Origin: Acanthochlamys bracteata
Lineage: Eukaryota; Streptophyta; Magnoliopsida; Pandanales; Velloziaceae
Assembly: GCA_019914995.1 (NCBI GenBank)
Contig: CM034143.1
Span: 64,501 to 128,500, forward strand
Length of the DNA stretch: 64,000 bases
Direction: 5' to 3'
Both the position numbers and the translations under genes were made by a program. How positions within the stretch are numbered: position 1 is the first letter of the stretch; each line of letters begins with the position of its first letter. The notes below the pieces were generated by a model. It searched no databases and had not been told where the DNA came from. It worked only from the letters and a program-made list of their open reading frames with translations. Shown here in pieces: positions 1-22,908 of the stretch.

Positions 1-3000
1 TAGCAGTAAAGACTATTATATGATAATAAATTGAGCAAAGAGAAAGAAATGATCACCTCATCAAAAGACTCAAAAATATCGATACTTGGTTGGTGAATAG
101 TGCAAACAACCGTCCGGCCAGTATCAACTGTATTTCTCACTGTCCTCATAACAATTGCGGCAGCTCTAGCATCAAGCCCTGTCGTCGGTTCATCCATGAA
201 GATGATGGATGGATTTGAGACCAACTCTACAGCAATTGTAAGCCTTTTTCTTTGTTCTGTCGAAAGACCGTCTACACCCGGTAGGCCTACCAGAGAGTCC
301 CTTATAACGTCAAGCTCGACCAACTCCATGATTTCTTCCACAAACATCTACAATCATCGAACAGAAAACAGGCAGTTCAATAAATTTTATATTATCCTAC
401 AAATTTGCATAATTATGTTCAGAAATAGCTGCGATGCAATTATATTCAATACAAGAGACGCAAGCACTAATTAAGCACGATTTTGGTTCGTTGCATGATA
501 AGTGAAAATGTAGAAGAAAGCAAGGAATTGAATGAGAAACATGCCTTCCTTGTTTCTCGGTTAACTTCAGGGGCGAGCCGCAACCAGGCTGAGTATGCAA
601 GAGACTCGAAGACAGTAACATAAGGGGAATGTATGTCGTTCTGTTCGCAGTAACCGCTAATTCTAGCAAAAGTTTCTTGCTTCTTCGGGTAACCAGAAAT
701 GTAGACACTTCCTTCCACATAACCTCCAGTCTTCCTCCCTGCTAAGACATCCATCAATGTTGTCTTTCCAGCTCCACTAACACCTACCAGCGCAGTCAGG
801 ATGCCTGCTCTGAAAGCACCACTTACGTCGCGTAATAGCTGAAGACGGGAATCCTCAATGCCTTGCCTCTTCATTTCCTGAAAACAATATAAATTGCTTG
901 CAAATTTCCTAGCAGCTTAGAAGAAGGGATTCATCAAAATAAGAAATTTAAACTCACAGCAGGCATGTCGACATAATAGTTGACATGATCAAAAGCAAGA
1001 GAAAGCGGTTCGAAAGGTAGAACCATTCCTCTCCTAGCTTGATGATTTGGAGAATCTGCATAACCATGAACATATGCCACAGAAACTGTACGTAAAAGTC
1101 CAAGATGTAAGGAATCAAACATCCCTACTTATTATTAACAGCGTACAAAACACAAGCAGTTGAATCTTTGAGCGTATCCAATATGACAAGGTCATACCAA
1201 GCTGTATTGCAAAGAGAAAAAGTACGAACCACTTCAAAATATTGCAAGAAGAAAATAAGAACCATGGATGGATCATCGAAAACCAGCTTTAAACTGATCA
1301 AGCTGCATAGATTAATCTCTAAGTAGATTGATTTTAGTCATGACATATTACATATAATTTGCTAGATATAGTGACCTTTCTCAAGGAAATAAGTTAACAG
1401 ATCATCTAAGAACCTTCATTATTAGCTCCTCCAGGGTGCTCCGGTACCGGTTTCTCCGAATCCTCTTGTGTCATGGTGGTCTGGATGCTTCCAAGAGCTG
1501 AGAAAATGAAAACTATCTGCATCGATCTACACTTTCTAGAGAAATAAAGTTGCGAAGGAGCTAGGGATGGATGACTCACGCTTTAAATAAGTTAAGGCCA
1601 GAACGAAAAGAATGTTATACAAGAAAGAAAACCCAATCAAGGCACCTACAGAAATCCAGTACCAGTAACCTTCTACGAACATTCCTTTGGACCTTAGAAT
1701 AGCTTTTCCAATTGTTGGTTCATTAATGGTGGCGTCATTATTCGGCTGCAGCAATTATCAAGTGAGGACATGTCGAGTAGGATATGACAAGCAGGTGCAA
1801 AAAATTTTAGGCAATATCAGAAGCTCACATTGTTCCATCTTGGATCAAGGAACTCATTAATGGCTATAGCATTCTGCCCGTACATCATTGGAGAAATCCA
1901 GTATCCCCATATCCACCATGGTTGGATGTCGTCTGTCAGAGACAAAGAGTAAAATCTGGAATTAATGAAGCTAGAAAGAATACAAAGCAGTGTCACAAGA
2001 TGATTACTTGCCACTTAAAATGAGAAAAATCTTGTTTCAGGGCAAAGATAATGCTAGCAAAAAAGTAAAATTGTCAACCTCTAGAGATGACAAAACCTCC
2101 AAGAACAAAAACAACAAGCAAAGCGAAGGTTGCAAATGTGTTGGCAAGGACCATTGTTCTTCCGACAGCAGCAATAAATCTAAATATTGCCATCGACATA
2201 TGATGCACGCAGAAAAATGCGACAAACTGTCGAAAGCACCTGAAAACACATGGAGACCAATTAAGCCATCAGATGATGATCAAGATAAGGTCCTTAAGAA
2301 AAGGAATTAATATATATATGGGTGCTTACCGGCTAGCAGAAGGTGCAAACCCCATCATGTAGTACGTAAGGATTACCCAAATTCCCGAGTCCATTAGCGA
2401 GAGAGGAATCTTAAGAAGCACATAAGGTAAGCTAAAAGCCCATGAAGGGTAGAACAGTAGATCTCTTTGTTTGTAGAAAACTGGAAGCCTGTAAACTGTC
2501 ATTGCTAATTCTGCCATGCTATTAAACATCATATTGACCAAACTATAGAATAATGCACCGAAAAATTTTCCTCCATCAGCAATCATTTTGTGATGCATTT
2601 CTGTCTTCAAGAATACTGTCATCCCCATGACCGACATAATTGTTATTTGGGCAATCTTGAAGATATAGAGGAAAGAATTTCGCTTCATCAGTAACCACTC
2701 CCTGGAAAGGCATGCTTTAAACAGCTCCCAGTTGGAGATACCATAATAACCCCTGGATAATGCGTGTTCAGTGTAGTGGGCACTCGATTTGTCAAAAGGA
2801 TATCTCAGATTATGCCAAAGATATTCACCAACATGAAATGACTTGAATGATTGCACAAGCTCACTGACTGAAACATATCTATATGGTTGGCTCTTCTTCG
2901 ACCAGTATTGCTTTTGATCTTTCCTAGATATCACTTGCTGAAGAAAGTCTGGAATGGCTTTTCGTTCTGGACATTTGAAACCCACGAACTCAAAGAACTC

Positions 3001-5192
3001 TAGAACGTTTTCTCGAGGGCCATTATAGACTATTTGTCCGTCTGCGAACAAAATTACATCATCGAAAAGATCAAAAGTTTCTACTGCAGGTTGAAGCAGA
3101 GACATGATCACCGTACTGTCCATAACATGAGCCATCTGCCTAATAAACTTAACAATCTGAAAGGTTGTCGAACTGTCCAGACCAGTAGATATCTCATCCA
3201 TAATCAACACCTTTGCTGGCCCCGCTAACATCTCGCCTAATTAATTAATTAATTATTGCCAGAAACAAATTAAAGCAGGAGAGATTAAATTTTGGGACAC
3301 TAGCCAAGTGCAATTTTAATTAGTGAGGTAAAGTCATGCATGAAGTACCTACCAGTTGTCAGACGCTTCTTCTGCCCCCCAGAAATGCCTCTTCTCATCT
3401 CATCACCAGCAATGATGTCTGCACAGAAATCCAAGCCGAGAACCTGCAAAAACGCATGATTTACCAGAGAGAAACTGATGGTTATGTACATAAGTTTACG
3501 AGTTCAAGTTATAACCTTGAGAATGTAATCAGTAGCAACGTTAGTTTTCTGCCCTTCCATCGCGACAGCCTTCATGTAAGCATCAATATCCAAGTCTGGT
3601 CTAATACCTGCATCCTTCTCTCTTCTCAGCAATTCATACAACAGTTTGTATCTTGTACCCACTCCTAAGCACCTCCCTGAGAAATCTATAGTCTCTCGAA
3701 CAGTCATTTCACCAGTATGGATATCATGCTGACTGATGTACGTGGAAGTCCTCTCAGGAACAAATTCCGAAAGCTCATGGCCATTGTATGCAACTTTACC
3801 GGACACCTGAAACAGAACAACTTCAACAGCATATATGTTTTGCAGCTTTCTTAAAGCATGCAAATTAAACAAACTATCGCACTTGTAAACCGATGAAGTG
3901 CCCAAACAAACGCAAAAATTGAACACATTAATTGAATGCAACAATCAATGCAATAAATTAATTAGATGTACATACATGTAGGTTCTTGTCAAGCTTCCCA
4001 GCAAGGGCTTTCAGAAGCGTCGTCTTACCAGAGCCTGGAGGTCCCAGTAGTAGCGTCATCCTGAAAATGTTTAAAATTTATATAAAAGAAAGAGAATCCT
4101 ATGAATTCTTTAGTTACAATCTTGGAACTAAAAGTCACACGCAGCTCTTTTCCCATAATTAATGCATATAGCATTATATTAATAGTGGTAGCTCTTATGC
4201 CGTATTGGGAAAATTTGGTTAGGCCCTTCGTCGTTACAGATGCATGAATAATGGCGAAGCCATTATTTTGCAATGGAATGGACTAACATATGACACTAGA
4301 AATAAAAACATGTATCTTGAAACTTCAAGTAGGAGCAGTAATAATTCATAAACCTCAAAGAGAAGCAATAATTTACAAGCCTAGCTCAGAGGTGCTGCAT
4401 AAGAAATTGAAAAACATTTTACACTAAATAAGGCACTTCAAATTTCATAAGGAGTCCATAGCAAGCATTGTGTATCCCATGAAATTAAGCATATATATAT
4501 GAAGCATATCATACCTTGACGGCTTCAGAATTCCACTGATACCCATGAGTATCTTCTTAACTTTTTTCTTTGACGAAGAAAGGCAAACCGAACCAAGCAG
4601 TCCCTAAATAAATTAAAAAATACAGTGAAAAAGGACTCAGAAGAGCACACTATAATATTGTTAAGCTTTATTAAACATTAATTCTTACGTACATCCAGAG
4701 CGTTGATTGTGACATTGGATAGAGTGGGTAATGCTCTGCTTCCCACATATGTTTTTCCCTCTACCTCCAAGTTCTCAAACCGCACCTCGATCTTCGGGAG
4801 CTCCAAACCAACCCTGGTCCATGAGCTCAGTCAGATTCTTGATTATTAATTAATTCTTGTAATGTACACGATGAAAGAAGATCATCAACAGAAGTTATTC
4901 ATGAATGAACGAGGTGTTACCGGTCGAATCTTTCTCTGATGCGCCCAAGGAAATTTTCACTGCCTTCATCAACGGTCTTGAGTATGCGGTCCATGAGAAG
5001 CTTCCGGCTCATTCCGTCAAGCTTCTCCACATCAACCACTCTGCTTATCGGCACGTCACTGTCATTGCTGGGAACGTCTGTCAGTATTGCCTTTCGCATT
5101 CTGTCATGCGTCGGCAGCATTTGCAGCGACTCCCACTGTTTTGCTGACTCTTCATGGTCCCTGCTGAAGCTGCGGAGCTCCATATCTGCCAT
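1..5192 (-). CDS. Full-size PDR-type ABCG transporter, copy 1 (C-terminus beyond window)
   Basis: ATP-driven plasma-membrane exporter of the plant pleiotropic drug resistance family. The substrate cannot be told from sequence. Start is the ATG at 5192. Exons (minus): 5192-4921, 4813-4693, 4603-4515, 4060-3976, 3806-3516, 3443-3353, 3236-2330, 2239-2079, 1932-1829, 1745-1580, 1497-1414, 1055-958, 877-545, 347-57; the rest lies left of the window. About 1031 residues are visible of the roughly 1400-1450 usual for the family. NBD1 has Walker [10 protein letters not shown] (~166-174), signature ISGGQKKR (~305) and Walker B/D-loop [16 protein letters not shown]1 follows (~490-800). NBD2 has GVSGAGKTT (~855), LSTEQRKR and [12 protein letters not shown]. 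The intron after 545 starts GC instead of GT. All phases join in frame, so this copy looks intact. It lies in tandem with copy 2. Confidence 0.95.
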
Positions 5193-6345: not shown

Positions 6346-9300
6346 TCATCGTTTCTGGAAGTTGAGGTATTTGATACAGATACAGAAGATGAATAGAAAG
6401 AGAAGGATGAATCCGAGATGAGCCACTGCAACGTAAGGGAGGAAGCTGCGATCGAAACCCATAATCTCCTTCAGGAAATCGTTCGTTTGTAATAAGCTAC
6501 TGGATTGCCCTGGATTAATCTCGACAAAACTCTCTTCGCCTCCCAACTGAGACGTCATCAGGCCGTAGATTGTCCCAGCGACAGGAGTAGCCCAGTAGAA
6601 CCATCTCCACCATATCGGTATCATCTGCTATATATATATGCATGAGAAACAGCATGCAAAATGCACGAGTAGCTAGCGCTCTAATGAAATACTACTGCAT
6701 GCTTAAAGACGAAAGAGAAGAGAAGCCATATTATAATTAAGAGCTGGCAATATTGTCGACGAACGAGTGTATCGACCAGATGAACTTGGCATATATATAT
6801 ATATATATATGATGGATAAATTTAAACAATCTGCAAAATTAAGCACTCATGTACCCTTGGCTAGCTACCATTTCTACTGCATATATACGTACCGGTCTAG
6901 GTATCAGAAATCCTGCAAACAAGTTCCATAAGCTGATCAGGAGGGAGGACACGACGCCAGCTATTTGATGGCTAGGGGTGATCGCCATCACCATCATTCC
7001 GTAGAGTGTGAAGCAGATGAAGTTCATGAAAATGAAGTAGGTAAACCAAAGGAACTTGTCTGCTTGCCAACCGAATCCGATCATAAAGAACAGGATACAA
7101 GTATAGGGAAGACACTGCACCGCTATGTAGATCACCTCGATGATTACCTGCATGCATGCCGAATTAATGCAGTTTAATTTCACGGACGTCGTCAAGCTAC
7201 GAAATGACAAATTAAGAAGAAATCCAGCAGGCTAGGGGTAACAAACTAATACATTAATTAAGAGTATATATTAGTTGATTAATTTGCCTGAGCAAATGCG
7301 TAGGACATGGATGAGTACATCCCAGCTGCTCTTTCACGGTAGAAGACTGTTCTCTCCACTGCTACGACAGGTTGCACCATATTTGCATTTGCCACACCAA
7401 GAAAAAACACAGCTGAATACATAGCTCCGAGTAGGTCCAGCAGATCCTGCTGTGTGTTCCTGTTTCATACGTACGTACGTACGTACAGCAGAAAATAATT
7501 AAGAAAGAACTTAGCATATATATTCAAACGTAGTTACGATCGAATGCAAGTTCTACTAATAGATGTGGAGAAAGTTCATTAAACAGTTCAAATTGATCAT
7601 TATATTAGCAGCTAATTAATTCTATATATGCTGAGAGCTAGCTTTAATTTTCAAGACTACTATTACTGTGTTCTGCAGCTTAATTTGGCAGATCGATGAC
7701 GGATTAAAATCCATCAAGGAAAATGGGGGGATTTCAATCGATTAAACGCATAGGATGATAAGAACCAATCTTACATTTTTTCAGCCTTCTTCCAAAAGAT
7801 GGTGCCGAACATAAGGCCAACAATAACTGTCAACAAAAACCGAATCCCATTGTACTGTGGATTCCTCCAATAAGAGCAGAATTGCTTCCAAAGACAAGCC
7901 TTGCATTGGTTGGTAAATGTCTGCGCATATTTACCGGAAAAAGAAATTTCCTTTGATCCAGGTGAAGGACGACTCAGCTCTTCAACAAGTGCCTCATTTT
8001 TCCTGCATGCATATATATATAAATGGTTGGAAGAAGATTAATTAAAAGAAGTACGTATTTGTTTTTTAGTGTCCTCATTGATTGTCCGATCCATTTCCAG
8101 AGAACCGAAAGCGTACGAGAGCAAGTGAAGACACTCACTCGTATAGAGATGAAGAGGAATATATGTCTGCAAAATCTATATTCAGGTGCTGCTCGGCTGA
8201 AATTGAAGTAACATCCAGTATCCAGGAAGCTGGATTGCAGCCTTTTTTTATTTTGGGAACGCCTGGAATAGCCTATTATATCAGAGATAATTAAACGGTA
8301 TGAGCTACTTATTTCAGGGAATTAATTAAGAGAAATGGCAGGCGGTATAGAGGCGGCGTAATCTATCTAGATCACAATTAAATCCAAAATTTTATGTTTT
8401 TCTTTAAACTTTAATTTGCAAATTATAATAACAAATTCTGTCCAGATGCATATATCGTAGATCATGTGAGATTAACTCTGGTTTCTCATGCATGAAAATA
8501 AGCACAAATTAATTTTCAAGATATGATTTGCAGTTGTAAATGGACCAGTTAAAATATTAAAGAGGTACTCACTTGAAAATACTCAATAAGCTTCCGAGAC
8601 TGGAGACCAAGATCTCCTGCATATATTATCCGTCCTCCTCTCTTCATCAATAGTAGCTATAAATTAACGAAAATTAAGATAAGTCTACGTACGTACGGAG
8701 AGTGCACTAGTTGTTAATTTATTTGAAACGGATCTTTTTTAAAGAACTTAAAAACTTACTTCATCAAATGATTCAAAGATATCAATACTCGGTTGGTGAA
8801 TAGTGCAGACGACCGTTCTTCCTGTATCAACAGTGCTTCTCACAGTTCGCATAACAATTGCTGCTGCTCTAGCATCAAGTCCTGATGTTGGTTCATCCAA
8901 GAAGATTATGGATGGATTGGAGACTAGTTCTATTGCAATTGTAAGCCTTTTGCGTTGCTCTGTTGAAAGACCATCTACACCTGGAAGGCCTACCAAGGCA
9001 TTTCTTAAATGACTTAGCTCAACCAGCTCCATGATCTCCTCTACGAACATCTACACAATTAACACAAGGACGCTGCTAATTAGTATTGCATGCTCATAAT
9101 AATTAATTATCTAGGTAGGAGTCAATTACTTTTTATAATAATCCAAGCAGGGCTGGTGAAGGCATTGAACAGGGAGTAGTTTTGAGAGCTAGCACAAAGT
9201 CAAGCGCCAATATATCCTTAATTTTGAAGTATAAAGGCAAGTTAATGTTTAATGATTATGGATAGTGATAACACAATCTAAACATATATCCTTCGGATCA

Positions 9301-12300
9301 AGATTTCTCACACATAATCTGGATAAATAAGAAGTTAGGAAATCATGAATTATCCAGGCCCCTGTCTAAATTAAGCCCAAGGAAGATAAGGAAAGCTAGG
9401 AAACCATATATAAATAGATGCATACCATCCTTGTTTCTGGTTTTATCTCTGGGGCAGCTCTCAGCCAAGCTGAATAGGCAAGAGATTCGTAGACAGTAAC
9501 ATGGGGTGAATGTATGTCATTCTGTTCACAGTAACCGCTAATTCGAGCAAAAGTCTCTTGCTTCTTAGGGTAACCAGAAATATATATACTTCCTTCTACA
9601 TATCCTCCAGTTTTCCTTCCTGCTAAGACATCCATTAGTGTCGTCTTTCCAGCTCCACTGACACCTATCAATGCGGTCAGGATGCCTGGCCTGAAAGCTC
9701 CACTTACATCATGTAGGAGCTGGAGACGGCATTCCTCCATGCCTTGCCTCTTCATTTCCTGAAAAAATTAAGAACAGACTGCTCAGGAATGAAAGAAGAG
9801 TCTTTCTTTTGTTAGAAACCTGCGTTTGTACTAACAGGATGACGCCGTTCTCAAGTTCTGCCGGACCAAATTGGTTCGTAATACGAAGAGATAATATCGA
9901 TCATGGCAACTTACCACAGGCGTATCAACATAGTAATTGATATGACGGAATGCTAGAGACAATGGCTGGAAGGGAAGAACCATTCCTGTCTTAGTCTTTT
10001 TATAACAGACAATCTCATGATGAATAGCTTTCTTCTTAGTTCCTCCTACTATTCCAATACCTGATAAAGTATGTGTCTGATTAAGCTCTAACGACTGCAT
10101 GCAGAATCAATGAGCATTATTTGTTTTTAAGAAATAACCACACGCGCGTAGTACATGGGTCACAGACGTCTAAAGCAAAAATATCATCAAAAAACTGCAG
10201 TGCCTTAATTACCTCCAACACCAGGTTCATTAGATGGCTGCTCCGACTTTTGTGTATCCTCATTTGTCAACACAGGCCGAGTATTACCTGGAGCTGCAAA
10301 GGAGAAGACATATGTCAGTAGTTTTATCTCGAAATTTTAGCATTTGAATCCGTGATTGCTTACATTTTAGAAAAGTTAGAGCCAGAATGAAACAAGCATT
10401 GCACAGAACTGAAGAAAGAATCAGCACACCAACAGATATCCAGTACCAATAACCATCCACGAACATTCCTTTGGATCTTAGGATGGCTTTTCCTAATGTC
10501 GGTTCAGCTACACTGGCGTCGTTATTTGGCTGCAACAATTGTGAAGTACGAGCTGAGTCAAGTCGCAAAACAATGCTATAATTAAAAATTTCAAAGTTTC
10601 CAAGTTTTTACGTACGTTACTCCATCTATGGTCCAAGAACTCGTTAATAGCGATAGCATTTTGCCCATACATCATTGGAGATATCCAGTAGCCCCAAATC
10701 CACCATGGTTTAATGCTGTCTGTCATTCATATAAAAAGAGCACAAGTCAGTTTTTATTTTTATTTTTTAATAGAAAGCAAAATATACCAAAAGGCTAATG
10801 TGTTACATGAAAATTGCAGGTGGTTTTAGTAATAAAAATAAAAAAAACAATTGAGATTGACCTTTGGAGATGACAAATCCTCCGAGAACATATATTACAA
10901 GCAAAACAAAAGCGCCTAACGTATTGGAAGCAACCATAGTTCTTCCGACAGCGGCAATGAATCTGAACAGAGAGAGTGACATCTGATGCACGGACACGAA
11001 TGCTAACAATTGTCCAAGGAACCTGAGTCATTGAGATTTTGGGAACAAAATGAAACAGAAAACAGGATTCTCACTAAATTCATTAGAAAATTGAAGTGCT
11101 TAATTACCTGCCGGTTGATGGTGCAAAACCCATTGTGTAGTACGTGAGGCAAACCCATATCCCTGATTCCAAAAGTGAGAGAGGGATCTTGACAATACAG
11201 TAAGACAAGCCAAAAGCCCACGGCGGGTAAAACATAAGTTCCCGTTGTTTATAAAACACAGGAAGCCTGTAAACCGTCATTGCCATCTCTGCCATCCCGT
11301 TGAACATCACGACAATTAAACTGTATAACAATGCCCCGAAATGCTTTCCTCCGTCTGCAATTGTTTCCCGGTTCATTTCTCCCCTGAAGAACACAGTCAT
11401 AGCCACGACTGATATAACTGTTAGCTGAGCCGTCTTAAATACATAGACAAAATAATTCTGTTTCAGCAATAGCCACTCTCTGTGGAGGCATGCTTTAAAG
11501 AGCTCCCACCCAGAAATGCCATACTTTTTCCTAGCCAGAGCAGCAGGGTCGGCATTCGATTCGTCGAAGGTCGACTTTAGGCACTCGTAAAGCAGCTTGC
11601 CAACATGAAAGGACCTGAATGCTTGAACAAATTCGGCAGCCGAAACATATTCATACGGTTCGTTCTCTTTAGACCAGTACTGCCCTTGATCCTTCCTCGA
11701 AATCACTTCCTGAATGAAGTCAGGTACATATTTTCTTTCAGGGCATTTGAAACCCATCGACTCAAAAAATTCGAGGATGCGGTCGCGAGGTCCGTGGTAC
11801 ACGATCTGGCCATCGGACAGCAGTATGACATCATCAAAGAGATCAAAAGTCTCTGGAGCAGGTTGAAGTAGAGATATGATTGCCGTACAATCCATAACAC
11901 GAACGACGCAGCTGATGAATTTTACAATCTGAAATGTTGTGGAGCTGTCTAGTCCGTTAGATACTTCATCCATAACTAATGCTCTTGCTGATCCAGCCAT
12001 CATCTCGCCTTTTTTTGTTATATATATATATATATATACAATAATAAAATCAGCACGGATCAACAGTGAAGTACAACTGCAGTTAATAGAGTAAAAACTT
12101 AAAGAACTGCATGTCCAGCTTTTGCTAGCATGCCTTTTAGCTAATCTTATGTCTCCATTTAATATTTTTGTGACCATGATTTAGGGGGTGTTTGGCTTTG
12201 CTTTCCTCCAACCCAACTTTTCAATTCTCCATTTCACGTTTTTCAATACATATTTTATAAATATATAAAAAATTTATTTAAAAATTTAGAAAGTGTAAAA

Positions 12301-13898
12301 AAATTCTACGGAGTGAGATCTTTTTATTGCATATTTTTATTATTTTTTTAGAAGAAAAAAAAAAAAGCTCTTTTTTCAAAAAGGACAAAAATACCCTTCA
12401 TTTTACAAAAGCTCCATTTCATAAGCAATTCCAAACGCCCCTTTAGAGTCCTCTGCGCGTGCACTGAGCTTTAGGTTCCCATAAGCTAATTAGGTCAATC
12501 AAAAACAGAGCACGGAAAACAAGCTTTGTGCGTAACAGAAAAAAACATAGCTTCCTACTCTCTGTTATGCATTTCGAAAGAGATTTAAAACGCTGACACA
12601 CAAAAATTAAAGTCCGAGATTAAAACAAAAGGCAATGAAATTTGATGCTCATAACACTGAAAAAAGTAAAATGAATAATTTGGTCAGGTACCAATAGTGA
12701 CGCGCTTCTTTTGGCCTCCGGAAATGCCTCTCCTCATCTCATCGCCGACAATGATATCCGCACAGGTATCCAGGCCGAGCACCTGCTATAATGGAATTGA
12801 TGAAAATTTATATTCAGAGATTGAAAATTTGTCAGAGTGGAAATCTACATATATAGCATTCTGCATCAACCTTGATTATGTAATCTGTAACCGCATTTGT
12901 GCTCCGTCCTTCAACTGCAGCTTCCTTCGTGAAAGCATCGACCATAATAGGATCAGGTGTGGCGCCCAGATCCTTTTCATGTCTTGACAATTCAGACAGC
13001 ATTTGAAGCCTGCTTCCGATGCCCAAGCACCTTCCCGAGAAATCTATGGTCTCACGAACCGTCATTTCACCCGTATGGATGTCATGCTGACCGATGTAAG
13101 CGCAAGTCTTCTGAGGAACAAACTCCGAGAGTTCCTGGCCGTTGTATGTGACTTTACCAGAAACCTGACACAAACGCATAAATCACAAGAACATTTTTTT
13201 TACACAGTGAAAGCGCATTCCACTTGATTTTTCCGTGACAACACAAAGCACTGATTATCCAATTCATGCGTTTGGAAAATTAAGGAATCTATATATGATC
13301 AGAGATTCCAAAAAGAAAAAGATCAGACCTTTAACTTGTTGTCAAGCTTCCCGGCAAGTGCTTTCAGCAGTGTTGTTTTACCGGAGCCCGAAGGTCCGAG
13401 AAGCAAAGTCATCCTGGAAATTAAAGCTAAATTTTAACTCATATGCACACTATTACAAATAATAACAGTCATGCATCCAATTATGCTTTAAACTACCTGC
13501 ATTTGAGAGTTCATGATGAAATTAAGAAATAGAAGTTGCGGCAAACATAGAATACCTGGACGGTTTGAGAACCCCACTGACTCCCTTGATAATCTTGTTG
13601 TTCTTTTTCTTCGACGGACAGAGACCAACAAAACCAGCCACTTCCTAGAAAACTCAAACATCAGAAATAGTCTCAAATTAACATGTACACGATCATATCA
13701 TCATTAATCATAAACTTAAAGAAACACGCATTTCATGAAATTCTACAGGAAACTTTGTTAGAATATTTAATTACCTCCAAAGTATTGATAGCGGCATTGA
13801 GTAAAGTCGGCAGTGCTCTATCACCTACATAACTATCTCCTTCAACTTCCAAGTCTTCAAACCTGACCTCAATCTTAGGCAGTTCCATTATTCGAACC
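6346..13898 (-). CDS. PDR-type ABCG transporter, copy 2, N-terminally truncated
   Basis: Tandem paralogue of copy 1, complete at its 3' end. Exons (minus): 13898-13775, 13644-13556, 13413-13329, 13164-12871, 12782-12692, 12008-11108, 11022-10862, 10719-10616, 10529-10364, 10293-10213, 10060-9915, 9758-9426, 9050-8760, 8656-8573, 8272-8139, 8002-7775, 7459-7288, 7147-6893, 6627-6346 (stop). Every exon joins in frame. The first in-frame ATG is at 13888, giving about 1336 residues that begin MELPKIEV, roughly 90 short of copy 1. NBD1: [17 protein letters not shown], and D-loop VSNGLDSS instead of the usual [11 protein letters not shown]2: [29 protein letters not shown]. The C-terminal TMD ends in the family-typical segment closing NFQKR. 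The intron after 7288 starts GC. With exon 1 degraded it may be a pseudogene or may use the internal start. Confidence 0.85.
12181..12445. mobile_element. Tourist-like MITE (PIF/Harbinger type) in intron of ABC copy 2
   Basis: A roughly 259-bp AT-rich element is flanked by a TTA duplication (12181-12183 and 12443-12445). Its ends are inverted: left GGGGGTGTTTGG and right CCAAACGCCCCT, 10 of 12 positions pairing. A 3-bp TTA target duplication with such termini is typical of non-autonomous PIF/Harbinger (Tourist) MITEs. The same intron is about 116 bp in copy 1 and about 680 bp here, consistent with insertion after the tandem duplication. Confidence 0.75.
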
Positions 13899-14060: not shown

Positions 14061-16202
14061 CTGTGCTTCTAGATTAAAAGCGAGTCAAAACGCAGGCTGA
14101 CGATTTTGTATGGCTGTAATGCAGCACTTGAATTTTCCCTCATAAAAATATTCATCGTGCTCGACCCATTAATCTTAAACTATAAGGATCATATATGTAT
14201 CTATATATAGATGCATGCATACAACAGATCTCTGTATATTTACTACTGAATATTCGGCAACAAAGTGTACCGATTAAGCACTGGACTGTCGATTTTAGAA
14301 AAAGTATATATTGAATGTTATGATGATACGAAGAACGATGACAAGGCAGATATATCCATGTGGCTCCCGTATCTCCAATTTTAATGCAGCTCCATATCAT
14401 GCACGCAAGTTTAATTTTCAAGTGGAAGACGAAACAAAATAAACTATAAAAAAAAAAAAAAGAAACTAGGCCACGTACCGCCTTATTTGATTTTGTTTTT
14501 GGTATATCTTTCAGTACTGGAAAGAATTTGTAACTAGGCTACGTAGCTTACTGGATAGGAAGCAACTCTTTAAAATTTCCTACAAGTTTTCAACAGGAAT
14601 TGCTTTCAAGCACGAGCGATATTGGATGCACATTCTTCTTCGATCTGGAGTAGATAGGAGATAGAAAATGTAGAAGAAGACTGGAATTATACATATAGGA
14701 TTCATCAAACTAGGAATAATATATAATGAATGGATATGGAAAAACGTGTTAATAGTAAGTAGTCAATTTGGTTAAGCAAGGAACTTAACGGTTTATTCTT
14801 TGTACAAGCGACACCATACTGAATATATATTTCATTTGGCATAACCATACACTTGCCTTTGTTTGTTTGTTAGACTTTTCTTTTTTATTACTATCAGTCT
14901 ATTAATTAGGTAAATAGATTACTGCACGCTTGTGTGGCTCATTCGTTTAATTCTGATTCAAATTCGGTCCAGTCTAAATTTTAAACCTAACCAAAATCAA
15001 AATTTAATGTAAGCCTACATACCTATACCTATACATATATAGTCGAGACAAATACAGTTGGATAAACAAACAGAAGTACCGGCTTAACTTGGTATAGATG
15101 AGTGCGATCAATTAACTTTCCGACAATTAGTGGAACTACAGAGAGATGTGGCAAGACGGTTTGGATGATATGAACATATCTCTACTTAAATAAGTCCGAG
15201 TTCGATCTAGATACAAAAACAACTTTTTTAAGTACGTATATAATTAAGACAGTTAGATTGAGAAAAAGATACTTGCATTAATTACCGTTTGGTACACGTG
15301 AAGACCTTTATTAGTTAATTCCTCGATCTCGTTCGTGATCGATCGAAAATCACCCAACGTACTTAACTAGCATGTCGATGCTAGCTAGCTGTTATTTGTC
15401 ACCGACTGCTCTGCTGCAAACATTAAGCAAACCAAGAAAGAATCAGATAACAGGAAAGACAAAAAAAAATTAAGTTTACTTGCTACCTAGCTGCATGCAG
15501 GCACCCAGCCTTCTTATAGATTCCTGCGTGCATGATTAGCTACTGATTAAGCTAGCTGTAATCAGTCACAGGTTACAATTGAAAGAGCAATGAAACAAAA
15601 GTCTAGACTCTTAGAGGACCACAGTAGAGTGTTTCTGGCATGCATGCAGTTCAATGCCTAAAAAATTACTTAAATTAGTCAGACAATTAACATGCACCTA
15701 GTAATATGATGAAAAAGCAGTGTCCAGTAATTAAATATGTAGTTTACTTTGATATATTGCTCACCTATGTTTATTCAGAAAGAGAGATCCACTAGAAGAT
15801 CTTGACTCTTTATCATAGGAGCCGGATAACCCGCCCTAAGTCACCCCTCTTAGCAAATGGCTCCACCTGTTTATGTAGAGATCCCATCCAACTAACCGAT
15901 AACCTATCAAATTGCTCGACAAACAAATAACCACCAAGAAATACATATCACCAGTTTCAAAGGAAGCTCCAAAAAGTACATACGTTTTTTTTTTTTTGGT
16001 AGGCCAGCTTCGACAAATAACATATGTTTGATGCCGGCAATAGAAACTCAGGGCCACCACAAATCAACTCTACATACACACATATCGCTGAAACTTTCAA
16101 GATACATTTGTTTGGACTCATTCCACTACCAAATGAATCCCTTCAGCAAAAGATTCAAAATATTTCCATAGATGACTAACATGGAGCGGTGACCTGGATG
16201 CA
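14061..16202. other. Intergenic, no supported gene
   Basis: AT-rich spacer between the broken 5' end of the ABC copy 2 locus and the 3' end of BUD31. It contains a poly-A stretch at 14449-14461 and scattered TATA-like runs. No reading frame resembles the missing transporter N-terminus. The right part, near 15.8-16.2 kb, may include BUD31 3' UTR. Confidence 0.5.
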
Positions 16203-16909
16203 TCAATCTCCACTAGCACAGCCTCTGCAACCACAATGCACGCATTCGATGACCTTCTCCTCCCTCAAGTGTTTAGGAACCCTGCAGACACATGTTGTCC
16301 CAAAGTTGTGGTCACGAGGTTGCATGCAGCGGAGGCAGCAAAGGCGTTCATAACCCGGCTGCATAGAGCAAAATGACACTGTTAGCCATGCAGATTATGC
16401 AGTCTTACACAGAAACATGTGAAAAAGAAGGATGCCAGGTCCTGCTAAAACACGAAAGATTTGAACAATGCAAGGTATGCGACATATGCTTCAGCAAGAA
16501 ATAACACCTTCAACAAATTAATAAATTTTGAATATGTGAAAGGCTTAACAACAATGTCAATATAATTTAACCATTATCACTGTTTCAGAAAGCCTGTTTT
16601 CTAACATACAAACAAACATAAGGATATAGCCAATACCTTCTTCCATTTAGCAATCAAATTCCGATCAGCATACCCCTGATCCAAGCAGAACTCATAGAGT
16701 TCCTTTGATATTTCCTTCCTCCTATAGTAAAGGTCATAAATGTAACGACTCTTTTGGTGGGTGAGCTTGAAGATGGGCCATAATGCCTCGCACTTCCTCT
16801 TACCGTCATGTGGATCGTTTTCAGCTGACAGTAATACGATGCACAAAAAAAATCACTTCATTACTAAGAACATCAAAATCCTATCGCGGACATTATCTTA
16901 ACCTCTCTC

Positions 16910-16948
<39 letters not shown>

Positions 16949-17065
16949 GACGAAGGGTTTATAACTATTACCTTCTCTCATCTTAGCTTCAAGCTCGCGG
17001 AGAGTGGGTTCAATGAGTTCCCATCCATCCGGGTACTGAACGCGGCTTGTCTTAACCTTCGGCAT
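16203..17065 (-). CDS. BUD31: BUD31/G10 spliceosome-associated protein
   Basis: BUD31 (G10) is a small, highly conserved nuclear protein of the activated spliceosome. Three exons (minus): 17065-16972, 16824-16637, 16358-16203, joining in frame to 145 residues, close to the family's usual length (about 144-145). It starts MPKVKTSR. The C-terminal third carries the cysteine-rich zinc-binding region ([35 protein letters not shown]). The middle has the family-typical helical segment [17 protein letters not shown]. The first intron contains a compound (TC)n(AC)n microsatellite at about 16903-16949. A CAG/GTAACC site near 17328 suggests an intron in the 5' UTR. The upstream region is part of the triplicated unit. 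Confidence 0.97.
16903..16949. repeat. Compound (TC)n(AC)n microsatellite in BUD31 intron 1
   Basis: About 28 bp of CT repeats are followed by about 16 bp of CA repeats on the plus strand, a few bases from the BUD31 exon 1 donor at 16971. Seen directly; likely length-polymorphic. Confidence 0.9.
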
Positions 17066-17265
17066 CGTTTGTTTGAATTGATTGATCGATTATTTACTAC
17101 TCCTCCTTCAATCCAATCTGGAGAAAACCAGACAAAAAAAAAACAACAGTAGTAGCAGCAATTGAAATCCCTGAAAAAATTGGCGAAAATCGAAGATAAC
17201 CGACACGAATCAATCGAAAACTAGAAATTGAGAATTTTAACTACCGAAAACCTTCAAATTCGAGC

Positions 17266-17520
17266 GACAAAACCCTAACAAAACCATTAGACTAGAAACA
17301 TCGGTTACCTGTGAGCGAAGAAAAATCAATCGACCGAACCCTTTCTCTTTTCCTTGCGGTCGAGAGAGAGGGAGAGAGAGAGAAGACGCGACTTGAAGAA
17401 ACGTGTTAGGTTGCTTCGGCTCGTGACGAATTCGAGTTCTGGGCTATAGCCCGAACCACCTACCTTCTTTTAAATAACCCAATGCTTTTAGGCCCATTAG
17501 CCCACTCCCGCCCAGTAAAC
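17266..17520 (-). promoter_or_regulatory. BUD31 upstream region with telo-box and TGGGCY elements
   Basis: The BUD31 leader/promoter has a telo-box (AAACCCTA, about 17272) and several TGGGCY/RGCCCA site-II-like elements between about 17440 and 17500, including the perfect palindrome GGGCTATAGCCC. These pairs are typical of plant genes for ribosome, splicing and other growth functions. The part right of 17393 recurs in the two further tandem copies. Confidence 0.5.
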
Positions 17521-17690
17521 ACACAAGCTAATTAACCCAACAGATAAATACAATCTCTACAAAGTAACAAACAGGTGAAATAAAAACAACATTTTATATG
17601 AAACTTTATAAATCAGAAATTCTGCACTTTGAATTAAATCAAAACAATCATACAAGAATTTTATTCGTTTGATATCTAACATTTTGTTGT

Positions 17691-17961
17691 TCATGAAGAA
17701 ACAGAAGTGAGTTTCTTTTCTGATACTATACTATCCAGCAGTGATTCGCACGCATCTTCCAGTATATCTAAAATCTGCAAAAATATAAGAGTTTTTTTGA
17801 AATGACGGTCATGGATATAAAGTAGTTGCCAGAAATTTTCACAGATTATATGCTGTACATTATCTATGAAGTACCTTTTCGAAACCCTTTGGACCTCCAT
17901 AATAAGGATCAGAAACTTCGGTTTCCTTGTGTCTCTTACAGAAGGAGCACATCAGTTTGAC
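17691..17961 (-). pseudogene. Duplicated phosphatase terminal exons, copy C
   Basis: Copy C of the two terminal phosphatase exons: 17961-17875 and 17774-17691, both with consensus splice sites and open frames. It encodes VKLMCSFC...EVSDPYYGG and [13 protein letters not shown]...LTSVSS. Compared with copy A it has S for P just before the catalytic Asp-Pro-Tyr, and I for V at the start of the last exon. It could act as an alternative 3' end if copies A and B were skipped; otherwise it is a gene fragment. Confidence 0.8.
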
Positions 17962-18876
17962 CTGCATGGATTATAATGGCTCATAAGAAAACATACATTC
18001 CTACTCAATAAAACCATCTCCATCCTGATTCATCAAACATTTATACGCTTTAGAAAACTTCACCGCACTGTGTCCAAGACATGAGCAGTAAATTACATGG
18101 CTCTGAATTTTTCACAGAGTACTGAAGGAGATTTTCAGAGATATGATGTGATGTCTAGCGACATGTTATGGCTTCAATCAGATTTTACAGAGACAGAACA
18201 TGTCATGACTTATATATGACATCTTTGATCCCCTTTTATTCCTTCTACAGCCTAACAAAATACTACGCTGTATCTCTACCACTGAGTACACATTTGAAAA
18301 TCCTCCTCATCAATATTTTACTCATAAATAGCGCCCTGAAATAACAGGGGATTCATCTTACAATGCAGTCAGTGAGATCGTCTGTATTGCAAAGACGTGC
18401 AACTTCAATTCGTAGCAAGCATCATCTCTATGCTTCAGTGCTTCCAATCACAACAGAGAGCTCTTAAATCTTCCTATGACAAAAATTTAGCAGTTCCATA
18501 CAAAACCACTAATTTCTAAGCACGCAAATCAAAGTTGAACCACTGAAACAAACCTTTTTTGGTGCGACTTGAAGAACCGTGTTAGGTTGCGTCGGCTCGT
18601 GACCTTTGGAATTCGAGTTCTGGGCTATAGCCCGAACCACATACCTTCTTTTAGATAACCCAATGCTTTTAGGCCCATTAGCCCACTCCCGTCTAGTAAA
18701 CACACAAGCTAATTAACCCAACAGATGAATACAGTCTCTACAAAGTAACAAACAGATGAAATAAATCTACAACAACATTTTATATGGAACTTTATAAATC
18801 AGAAATTCCGCACTTTGAATTAAATCAAAACAATCATACAGGAATTTTGTTCGTTTGATATCTAACATTTTGTTAT

Positions 18877-19147
18877 TCATGAAGAAGCAGAAGTGAGTTT
18901 CTTCTCTGATACTATACTATCCAGCAGTGATTCGCACGCATCTTCCAGTATATCTAAAACCTGCAGAGATAAAAGAGTTTTTTTGAAATGGCGGTCATGG
19001 ATATAAAGTAGTTGCCAGAAATTTTCACAAATTATATGCTGTACATGATCTATGAAGTACCTTTTCGAAACCCTTTGGACTTCCATAATAAGGATCAGGA
19101 ACTTCGATTTTCTTGTGTCTCCTACAGAAGGAGCACATCAGTTTGAC
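18877..19147 (-). pseudogene. Duplicated phosphatase terminal exons, copy B
   Basis: Copy B: exons 19147-19061 and 18960-18877. The frame is open and splice sites are intact, though the acceptor is TTTAG rather than TGCAG. Relative to copy A it has R for K, KI for ET and S for G in the penultimate exon ([20 protein letters not shown]). The last exon is identical at protein level to copy A. Either an alternative 3' end or a non-functional fragment. Confidence 0.8.
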
Positions 19148-20052
19148 CTAAATTGATTATAATGGCTCATAAGAAAACATACATTCCTACTCAATAAAAC
19201 CATCTCCATCCTGATTCATCAAACATTTATACGCTTTAGAAAACTTCACCGTGACCGTGTCCAAGACGCGTGGCGAGAAATTACATGGCTCTGAATTTTT
19301 CACAGAGTACTTAAGGAGATTTTCAGAGATATGATGTGATGTCTAGCGACATGTTATGGCTTCAATCAGATTTTACAGAGACAGAACATGTCATGACACA
19401 TCTTTGATCCCCTTTTACTCCTTCTACAGCCTAACAAAATACTACGCTGTATCTCTACCACTGAGTACACATTTGAAAATCCTCCTCATCAATATTTTAC
19501 TCATAAATAGCGCCTGAAATAACAGGGATTCATCTTACAATGCAATCGGTGAGATCGCTCAGATTGCAAAGACGTGCAACTTCAATTCGTAGCAAGCATC
19601 ATCTCTATGCTTCAGTGTTTCCAATCACAACAGAGAGCTCTTAAATCTTCCTATGACAAAAATTTAGCAGTTCCATACAAAACCACTAATTTCTAAGCAC
19701 GCAAATCAAAGTTGAACCACTGAAACAAACCTTTTTTGGTGCGACTTGAAGAACCGTGTTAGGTTGCGTCGGCTCGTGACCTTTGGAATTCGAGTTCTGG
19801 GCTATAGCCCGAACCACCTACCTTCTTTTAGATAACCCAATGCTTTTAGGCCATTAGCCCACTCCCGTCCAGTAAACACACAAGCTAATTAACCCAACAG
19901 ATGAATACAGTCTCTACAAAGTAACAAACAGGTGAAATAAATCTACAACAACATTTTATATGGAACTTTATAAATCAGAAATTCCGCACTTTGAATTAAA
20001 TCAAAACAATCATACAGGAATTTTGTTCGTCTGATATCTAATATTTTTTTGT

Positions 20053-22171
20053 TCATGAAGAAGCAGAAGTGAGTTTCTTCTCTGATACTATACTATCCAG
20101 CAGTGATTCGCACGCATCTTCCAGTATATCTAAAACCTGCAGAGATAAAAGAGTTTTTTTGAAATGGCGGTCATGGATATAAAGTAGTTGCCAGAAATTT
20201 TCACAAATTATATGCTGTACATGATCTATGAAATACCTTTTCAAAACCCTTTGGACCTCCATAATAAGGATCAGGAACTTCGGTTTCCTTGTGTCTCTTA
20301 CAGAAGGAGCACATCAGTTTGACCTGCATGGATTATAATGGCTCATAAGAAAACATACATTCCTACTCAATAAAACCATCTCCATCATGATTCATCAAAC
20401 ATTTATACGCTTTAGAAAACTTCACCGCACTGTGTCCAAGATATGAGCAGTAAATTACATGGCTCTGAGTTTTTCACAGAGTACTTAAGGAGATTTTCAG
20501 AGATATGATGTGATGTCTAGCGACATGTTATGGCTTCAATCAGATTTTACAGAGACAGAACATGTCATGACACATCTTTGATCCCCTTTTACTCCTTCTA
20601 CAGCCTAACAAAATACTACGCTGTATCTCTGCCACTGAGTACACATTTGAAAATCCCCCTCATCAATATTTTACTCATAAATAGCGCCCTGAAATAACAG
20701 GGGATTCATCTTACAATGCAGTCAGTGAGATCGTCTGTATTGCAAAGACGTGCAACTTCAATTCGTAGCAAGCATCATCTCTATGCTTCAGTGTTTTCAA
20801 TCACAACAGAAAGCTCTTAAATCTTCCTATGACAAAATTTAGCAGTTCCATACAAAACCACTAATTTCTAAGCACGCAAACCAAAGTTGAACCACTGAAA
20901 CAAACCTTTTTGGGTGCGTCTGTAGGAAGAGTCTCTCTGAACCTCCACCTTTCAAATGCACTCAGTATATCCTCTGGAAGAAAAAAAAAAAGGAGCTCAT
21001 TAACCACTCATTTTTTCACAAATAATCAATAAAGAAATTTGAATGGAATACCTCGGTTCTGCATGTCCATAGCAAGTATGAGATCAAAGTCCCTGAAATC
21101 AGAGGGCTTGATTGGGCGTGATATCGATGTTACTTCGATTCCACGCCTCTTTGCAGCCGCCCTCATCCTCGGGTCTGCCTGATTACCCTGAAGTCCCGGT
21201 ACAACCCAAATTCAATTCAGAGATTCCAAGTTTCATATTCACAACAATCAATAAATCTAAAATTCACTAAAGAGATGATAAAAAAATTCAATTTTTGTAT
21301 CGTAAAAGTAATGAATGGAGTGTGTATGAGTTCAAAATTCAATCCTTTTAACCAAGATAATAACACATGCCTCATGGTAACCGATGGTGCCGGCAGAGTC
21401 AATGAAGAAACTTCCCTCGAGACCTCTCTTGGTAACCATGCCACGGAACACAGCCTCTGCTGCTGGGCTCCGACATATGTTTCCTGTCCATAGTCCAACG
21501 TGAAACAACAACAACAAGACGTCAAGATCCAATCTTTCTATTCCCAAGCAAAACAAGACCAAAACCTTTCTCATTCACAATCAAACAAGATTCAATCTTT
21601 CTACTCACAATCAAAGCAAAAGACTGAATCTCTCTTTTCACAATTGAAACAAGATTCGTTGTTTCTTCACAATCCAAACAAGATTCAATCATTCTACTCA
21701 CAATCAAAGCAAAGACTGAATCTCTCTTTTCACAATTGAAACAAGATTCATTGTTTCTTCACAATCCAAACAAGATACAACCTTCCTGTTAATACATCAA
21801 GGCAAGATTCAAGTTTTTCTACTCGCAACCAAAAACAAGATCAATCTTTCTACTCTCATCCAAAACAAAAGGAAAAGAAAAAAAGAGTAATCTTTCTAAC
21901 CAAGGCAGACGAAGAGGATAGAGAAAGGCCTGGGACTCGCAGCGACAGTGTCCTCCTCCGTTGCCACGTCAGCAGAAGAAGAAGCAGAAGCCATGGAGGA
22001 GCGCTGCCACGGCGGGAGTGATTGAACGGAGACGAGAACCGACGAGTACAACGTGAACGGTAAATAACAAAAAGAAGGGCGGATGTAAAATGGTAACTTC
22101 CGAGCGATTGTTGTGATAGGGGTGGTAATACTACTACCAGCTGCAGCTGCAGCAAATGCTCTCGTGGTCAT
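20053..22171 (-). CDS. Low-molecular-weight protein tyrosine phosphatase, organelle-targeted form
   Basis: Cysteine-based phosphatase of the LMW-PTP family, which removes phosphate from phosphotyrosine through a Cys intermediate. Exons (minus): 22171-21901, 21483-21371, 21187-21052, 20973-20906, 20323-20237, 20136-20053; 252 residues. The P-loop CLGNICRS (about residues 88-95) spans the first intron. The catalytic acid lies in VPDPYYGG in exon 5. About 80 residues precede the core, Ala/Ser/Arg-rich and transit-peptide-like; an internal ATG (MASASSSAD, about residue 60) could give a cytosolic form. Intron 2 (21370-21188) begins GC after CATGAG; other donors break the frame. Intron 1 holds a minisatellite. 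Exons 5-6 are the nearest of three tandem copies. Confidence 0.93.
21535..21870. repeat. Minisatellite of ~30-bp monomers in phosphatase intron 1
   Basis: TCACAAT recurs at about 21575, 21605, 21638, 21667, 21698, 21730 and 21759, spacings 29-33. Three monomers form a higher unit of about 92-93 bp seen twice (from 21586 and from 21679) with few differences. Degenerate copies extend to about 21870. The whole array is inside intron 1 of the phosphatase gene (21484-21900). Confidence 0.85.
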
Positions 22172-22908
22172 GGTTGGTGTTTGTTCTTCTTTGTCGTCTT
22201 TCTTCTTTCGGCGGCCCAAGAAACAAAAAAAAAACTGGACTTTTCAAGATTGGTTTTTCTTTTTCTTTATTTTCTGGGAACAGATAGATTGGGGAACTGG
22301 ATTCTGGCACTGCCAGCCACATGACATGTTTTCCTTTTTGCAATGAATGAGAAAAGCCTTGATATCGTATTCAACAAATCGCATCTGAAGCTTGGAGTAA
22401 AGTTTATTATATTAATTCTACTATTATTCCAACGGAAACATTATTTACAATCAAAGAAATGGACTGATTCATTGAAGGAGAACAACAGCTCTGCTGAACA
22501 CGAGATATACATACGCTTTGAATCTTGATAAAGATACAGACGTCCACTTTCTTTCAAAATATAATGATGGATGGATGTTATTAACAGGGAGCAGAGAGAA
22601 AATCTTGCTCAGCACAGCACAACACAGTATAGTATAGCATAGCACAGCATAGCAGAATCTGCATTTACAACAAAGGTTTGGCATGCTAGAAAAACCGGAA
22701 AATGGCTTCATGCCTAGGAGAGAGGGGAAGTAACAAGCAGCTCTCCTTGTATATTTTCTTGAATCTGAACGAGGGGAAAGGTCTAATAAACCTCATAGGA
22801 TTTCTGCAGCAATCCGCCTGAGTGAATTCTATAAATATCCGCATTGTATATACCTCAACCACGTTTTCTTAAATGTAACCACAACCCCTCTACAGCTCAA
22901 GATCCATG
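22172..22908. other. Intergenic: phosphatase 5' flank and kinase 3' UTR
   Basis: Holds the promoter and leader of the phosphatase (right of 22171) and probably the 3' UTR of the kinase (left of 22909). Around 22610-22660 there is a degenerate short-period repeat built from CACAGCA/TATAGCA units. No other gene is supported. Confidence 0.5.

Follow-up and report, generated by a model that had tools for sequence, protein, structure and literature searches.

Tandem duplications that ignore gene boundaries can link a gene's 5' portion with the 3' portion of a different gene, as described for Drosophila in the accessible text of PMC5460883. The Drosophila yakuba chimeras covered there resemble the locus described here in joining a 5' part to a neighbor's 3' part, often with changed expression; they differ in being polymorphic duplicates with RNA data, whereas the present duplication is older, has three copies and includes no coding exon of the 5' partner. 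At the cucumber F locus (CsACS1G), according to the accessible part of PMC7072070, a gene copy likewise acquires a recombinant promoter at the joint of a tandem duplication, unequal crossing over removes copies, and one three-copy line is reported. There, however, the unit spans 30.2 kb and holds a whole extra gene with a sex phenotype, while here it measures 1.18 kb and holds a gene tail only, with no known phenotype. PEP1 of Arabis alpina (PMC3527215, excerpted text) is likewise a plant gene tandemly duplicated only in part, with duplicated exons that use the remainder of the gene in common; in that case the first exon and parts of the promoter are duplicated, both copies are transcribed and accessions vary, whereas here the 3' exons of one gene and the promoter of the next are duplicated. 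The locus is best classed as a small member of the known class of boundary-crossing partial tandem duplications. In a literature search on its two genes together, BUD31 is not named in the best 10 of 572 papers, and we make no claim that the locus is unpublished.

The locus lies in a window of 64,000 nucleotides from Acanthochlamys bracteata (contig C18, 64501-128500), in which two neighboring genes occupy the minus strand. One encodes a low-molecular-weight tyrosine phosphatase (PTP) that matches LMWPc (PF01451) with 136 bits, and its CX5R loop and DP(Y) acid loop fall within one LMWPc domain. The other is BUD31, with a full-length match to PF01125 (224.4 bits, profile 1-146 of 146) and a 5' UTR intron that, by eye, appears to begin near 17309. 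The last two PTP exons are present three times, in units c1, c2 and c3:

16203..17065, minus strand: BUD31 coding exons 17065-16972, 16824-16637 and 16358-16203 (145 aa, PF01125).
17691..17961, minus strand: c1 exons 5-6, 17961-17875 and 17774-17691, with three replacements relative to c3 and a 53-aa open reading frame.
18877..19147, minus strand: c2 exons 5-6, 19147-19061 and 18960-18877, with four replacements relative to c3 and a 53-aa open reading frame from the exon-5 ATG.
20053..20323, minus strand: c3 exons 5-6, 20323-20237 and 20136-20053, the likely working 3' end of PTP.
20906..22171, minus strand: PTP exons 1-4, 21994-21901, 21483-21371, 21187-21052 and 20973-20906 (LMWPc PF01451).

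The PTP frame is open upstream of exon 1 as far as an ATG at 22171, so the true start may lie there, and a candidate transit peptide is possible at the N-terminus. All PTP matches in its own genome (8/8) fall within this locus, and the gene looks single-copy. Intron 2 (21188-21370) appears by eye to be of the GC-AG type, and intron 1 contains a minisatellite (21523-21784) with rows of period 29, 63 and 92.

Between the two genes we found an array of three head-to-tail units in the same orientation. Every unit starts with the final 13 nt of PTP exon 4, continues through exons 5-6 and stops just short of a CT-rich stretch before BUD31, so that one endpoint is inside PTP and the other in the 5' region of BUD31, and both endpoints are shared by the three copies:

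17391..18566, minus strand: unit c1 (1176 bp), adjoining BUD31, with a 13-nt exon-4 stub, intron 4, PTP exons 5-6, the 3' region and BUD31 promoter copy P1.
18560..18575, minus strand: joint 1 (18566/18567), where P2 is fused to the c1 exon-4 stub, with CGC microhomology.
18567..19743, minus strand: unit c2 (1177 bp), in the middle, with the same content as c1, a mosaic of c1-like and c3-like sequence with clusters of private changes, ending in P2.
19737..19752, minus strand: joint 2 (19743/19744), where P3 is fused to the c2 exon-4 stub, identical in sequence to joint 1.
19744..20918, minus strand: unit c3 (1175 bp), adjoining PTP and running on from the complete exon 4; its exons 5-6 keep the family-invariant residues, and it ends in P3.

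The order in the direction of transcription is therefore PTP exons 1-4, c3 exons 5-6, P3, stub and donor, c2 exons 5-6, P2, stub, c1 exons 5-6, P1 and BUD31; since both genes are on the minus strand, the inner joints place a copy of the BUD31 promoter ahead of a PTP tail. The sequence-only reading of this DNA had described a triplicated unit with the last two PTP exons and the BUD31 upstream region, and the three copies, their canonical splice sites and their open frames bear it out. So does the recurrence of the joint sequence (GCG/ACTTGAAG) at both internal boundaries for its claim of constant endpoints, and of the span that it gave (17393..20918) the end is exact and the start is off by 2 bp.

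The repeat is far past chance (BLAST E 0.0 across 2375 aligned columns), and the units are 3.2-4.2% apart pairwise. Substitutions number 49/1165 aligned positions between c1 and c2, 37/1165 between c1 and c3 and 40/1173 between c2 and c3, with 7, 5 and 6 indel events, respectively; one terminal column, where c3 extends 1 base too far, is left out of the count. Private events number 26 in c1, 30 in c2 and 16 in c3, and such copy-specific differences argue against an assembly artefact in which haplotypes or reads were falsely stacked. Furthermore, the joint sequences would be absent from a single-copy locus, and the array sits in a 6.96-Mb contig. Own-genome searches, which score the best candidates only, found no further copy of the unit in the assembly (195.5 Mb, 557 contigs), the three matches being the array itself, and an intron piece of the unit also matched only in the array. 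Three copies are thus confirmed as real, and we give an artefact hardly any credence.

Read on the minus strand, both internal joints are CTTCAAGT-CGC-ACCAAAAAAG, in which the 3 bp CGC is common to both parent sequences at the break. Identical joints point to one founding duplication that was amplified later. In the founding event, PTP exon 4 would have been joined through microhomology to the region upstream of BUD31, giving a 1.18-kb tandem duplication, and amplification to three copies would have followed by unequal homologous recombination. If unequal crossing over took place between two copies, the middle copy should resemble c1 toward PTP and c3 toward BUD31. The 42 events that distinguish c1 or c3 from the other copies are best divided at column 699 of 1189: toward PTP, 12 are c3-only and 5 c1-only; toward BUD31, 4 are c3-only and 21 c1-only (permutation p 0.0076, falling to 0.0036 for the predicted direction; runs test p 0.0028). 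This result, together with the identical joints, agrees with the growth by unequal exchange proposed in the sequence-only reading. That reading further proposed that copy number may vary between individuals; the analysis covered one assembly.

The two sides of the break differ in how much they contribute. Columns 2-699, on the PTP side, hold 5/26/12 private events of c1/c2/c3, columns 700-1189, on the BUD31 side, hold 21/4/4, and a single-crossover history is not clean on the PTP side because c2 has most private changes there. These 26 c2 events are clustered, being reduced to 7 once events within 12 bp are merged. On the PTP side c1 and c2 differ more (26/685) than c1 and c3 (15/686), and c1-c3 divergence depends on the side (15/686 versus 22/479 on the BUD31 side, p 0.027). 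Three sequences taken with no outgroup yield branch lengths and not a tree. Unequal crossing over is hence supported by identical joints and a mosaic c2, with most of the signal on the BUD31 side and a weaker one on the PTP side. The low divergence had also been taken to mean a recent expansion, a view that the analysis does not support: the divergence is low only in relative terms, and 3-4% is not very recent. Taking a neutral rate of 7e-9 per site and year, a divergence of 3-5% would correspond to roughly 2-3.5 million years, and the c2-c3 divergence on the BUD31 side (1.4%, 7/489) to roughly 1 million, with older dates if the plant is long-lived.

Two clusters of c2-only changes were found in intron 4 of c2. 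In the first (19542-19567), seven c2-only substitutions within 18 bp bring an inverted repeat from 4/10 to 10/10 pairs, a pattern that resembles template-switch correction of a quasi-palindrome; when these columns were given random replacements, the repeat became perfect in 263/200000 trials, the columns having been picked post hoc. The second (19252-19277) has ten c2-only events in 26 alignment columns, and a genome search for a donor, allowing up to 3 mismatches, found only the cluster itself. Two other causes of the repeat were considered and rejected. For a structured RNA, a search of 16000-22300 against Rfam gave a sole match (E 2.5) below the gathering score and outside the array, and six intron pieces (two places in three copies) folded no better than shuffled sequences (z -0.62 to 1.66). 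For a mobile element, searches that score the best candidates only found no copies elsewhere in the genome.

Contig C16 carries a homeologous segment whose collinearity with C18 begins before the window and reaches approximately 56 kb, where the C16 piece ends. On this segment PTP survives only as its 5' flank and the beginning of exon 1: window positions 22260-22107 align to C16:100680-100561, and the alignment of the part downstream of the ATG was equaled by 0/200 shuffles. This remnant indicates that the PTP-BUD31 neighborhood predates the C16/C18 duplication and that PTP is now apparently single-copy. We discarded C16 as an outgroup for the unit; most of PTP is gone, and the BUD31 upstream region aligns clearly, by eye, only near the CT-rich stretch, so that C16 does not polarize the array. 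Direct repeats of at least 300 bp and at least 75% identity were found in 4/28 10-kb pieces, namely this array, a transporter pair in the window and 2/14 pieces placed arbitrarily on C1-C7 (with copies kilobases apart), the last suggesting that local duplication is not rare in this genome. None was found in the eight C16/C18 pieces around the locus, a size of piece that misses wider pairs. The transporter pair (window 1-4100 and 8700-13420) is a minus-strand tandem gene pair whose open reading frames read like ABCG/PDR transporters, with two matching stretches on collinear C16 (C16:79000-95800). Another BUD31-like match (C65:3001-10127) has internal stops (2 TGA, 1 TAG, 2 TAA) and lies on a 10-kb contig with a G+C of 0.51, against 0.29-0.42 in 22 other pieces; it is either a diverged pseudogene or a contaminant contig.

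All three PTP tails have canonical donors and acceptors, open frames and no coding indel. The sequence-only reading saw in them three possible 3' ends of PTP, and their alternative use would yield isoforms distinguished by residues next to the catalytic Asp or by the 3' UTR. Three open tails do exist, and exons 1-4 joined to any of them give, from an internal ATG, a complete 193-aa LMWPc protein with no inner stops (136, 135.9 and 133.7 bits), but the tails are not equivalent. Relative to c3, there are seven replacements (three in c1 and four in c2) and synonymous differences at 2 sites. A P->S change in c1 affects a position that is P in 80/80 relatives, a V->I change in the same copy one that is V in 80/80, and a G->S change in c2 one that is G in 77/80, while c3 retains all three residues. 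Among the remaining four replaced positions, three vary and the fourth is unaligned in 79/80 relatives. The panel comprises 80 of the 81 bacterial relatives found, all 80 aligned and mostly Bacteroidota; they were recruited by peptide patterns of the query, one of which (DILEDACE) sits beside the tested V, and they served only to judge residue conservation because the protein collection searched is prokaryotic. Arabidopsis has a single LMW-PTP gene, APH, whose activity is abolished by Asp231Ala, according to the accessible text of PMC9345830, and a c1 change adjoins the Asp that we equate, by shared motif, with this essential residue. Transcription also reaches the 3' end of c3 first. We therefore regard three alternative PTP ends as unlikely; c3 would be the tail in use, with c1 and c2 relaxed.

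Divergence between copies is alike in coding and noncoding sequence (Fisher p 0.68, 1.0 and 0.82), and the lower coding divergence expected from selection was not seen, in a comparison of 171 coding positions with low power. The dN/dS ratio exceeds 1 for c1-c2 and c2-c3 and is below 1 for c1-c3, the latter (dN 0.023, dS 0.055) from five differences. Open frames, canonical splice sites and the absence of coding indels in all tails would also be expected if the tails were used, and this counts against treating the inner ones as leftovers.

BUD31 had been said to sit behind three promoter copies. The three copies exist, but only P1 faces BUD31, with P2 and P3 each preceding an orphan PTP tail; the BUD31 upstream part is indeed duplicated in each unit, but every copy ends just upstream of the CT-rich stretch, which aligns by eye with the C16 BUD31 homeolog. 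P1, which is shorter by 5 bp close to its end, and P2 have two TGGGC(C/T) motifs each, and P3 lacks one (TGGGCC). The inner joints could be new chimeric genes, in which a BUD31 promoter copy would drive the stub exon and exons 5-6 to yield a 53-aa acid-loop fragment, possibly interfering with PTP. Several features fit such genes: the donor lies right after the joint, the acceptors are canonical, the exons are phase 0, P2 retains both motifs, and the exon-5 ATG opens 53 aa in all three copies, with fragments that exceed the LMWPc cut-off of 23.2 bits (26.3 for c2, 24.1 for c1 and 26.4 for c3). In Drosophila yakuba, the accessible part of PMC5460883 gives 24/76 tandem-duplication chimeric genes with raised expression. 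However, the promoter copies stop before the CT-rich stretch, P3 is without its TGGGCC motif, and there is no sign of coding constraint; upstream ATGs also stand before the stub donor, by 124 bases in P3 and by 125 and 89 in P2, their presence in RNA depending on the start site. Chimeric genes at the joints thus seem quite improbable to us. Less probable again is that the array holds two tandem new genes in which a 53-aa microprotein from the C-terminal part of the phosphatase, with the catalytic Asp loop, is expressed from the promoter of BUD31, a spliceosome factor; if true, the microprotein could compete with the single-copy PTP, and copy number would set the dose.

Considering all of the above, it seems likely that a 1.18-kb duplication founded by microhomology was amplified by unequal recombination, with the c3 exons completing PTP, P1 driving BUD31 and the inner fusions being mostly neutral leftovers. 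PTP would then be completed by the exons of copy 3 and BUD31 driven by the promoter of copy 1, while the inner promoter-tail fusions would be mostly neutral and decaying, giving at most short chimeric or read-through RNAs. The locus would thus be a clean example of how a small cross-boundary tandem duplication makes promoter-exon fusions with both parent genes apparently whole, and the array also illustrates the amplification of such fusions by unequal exchange.
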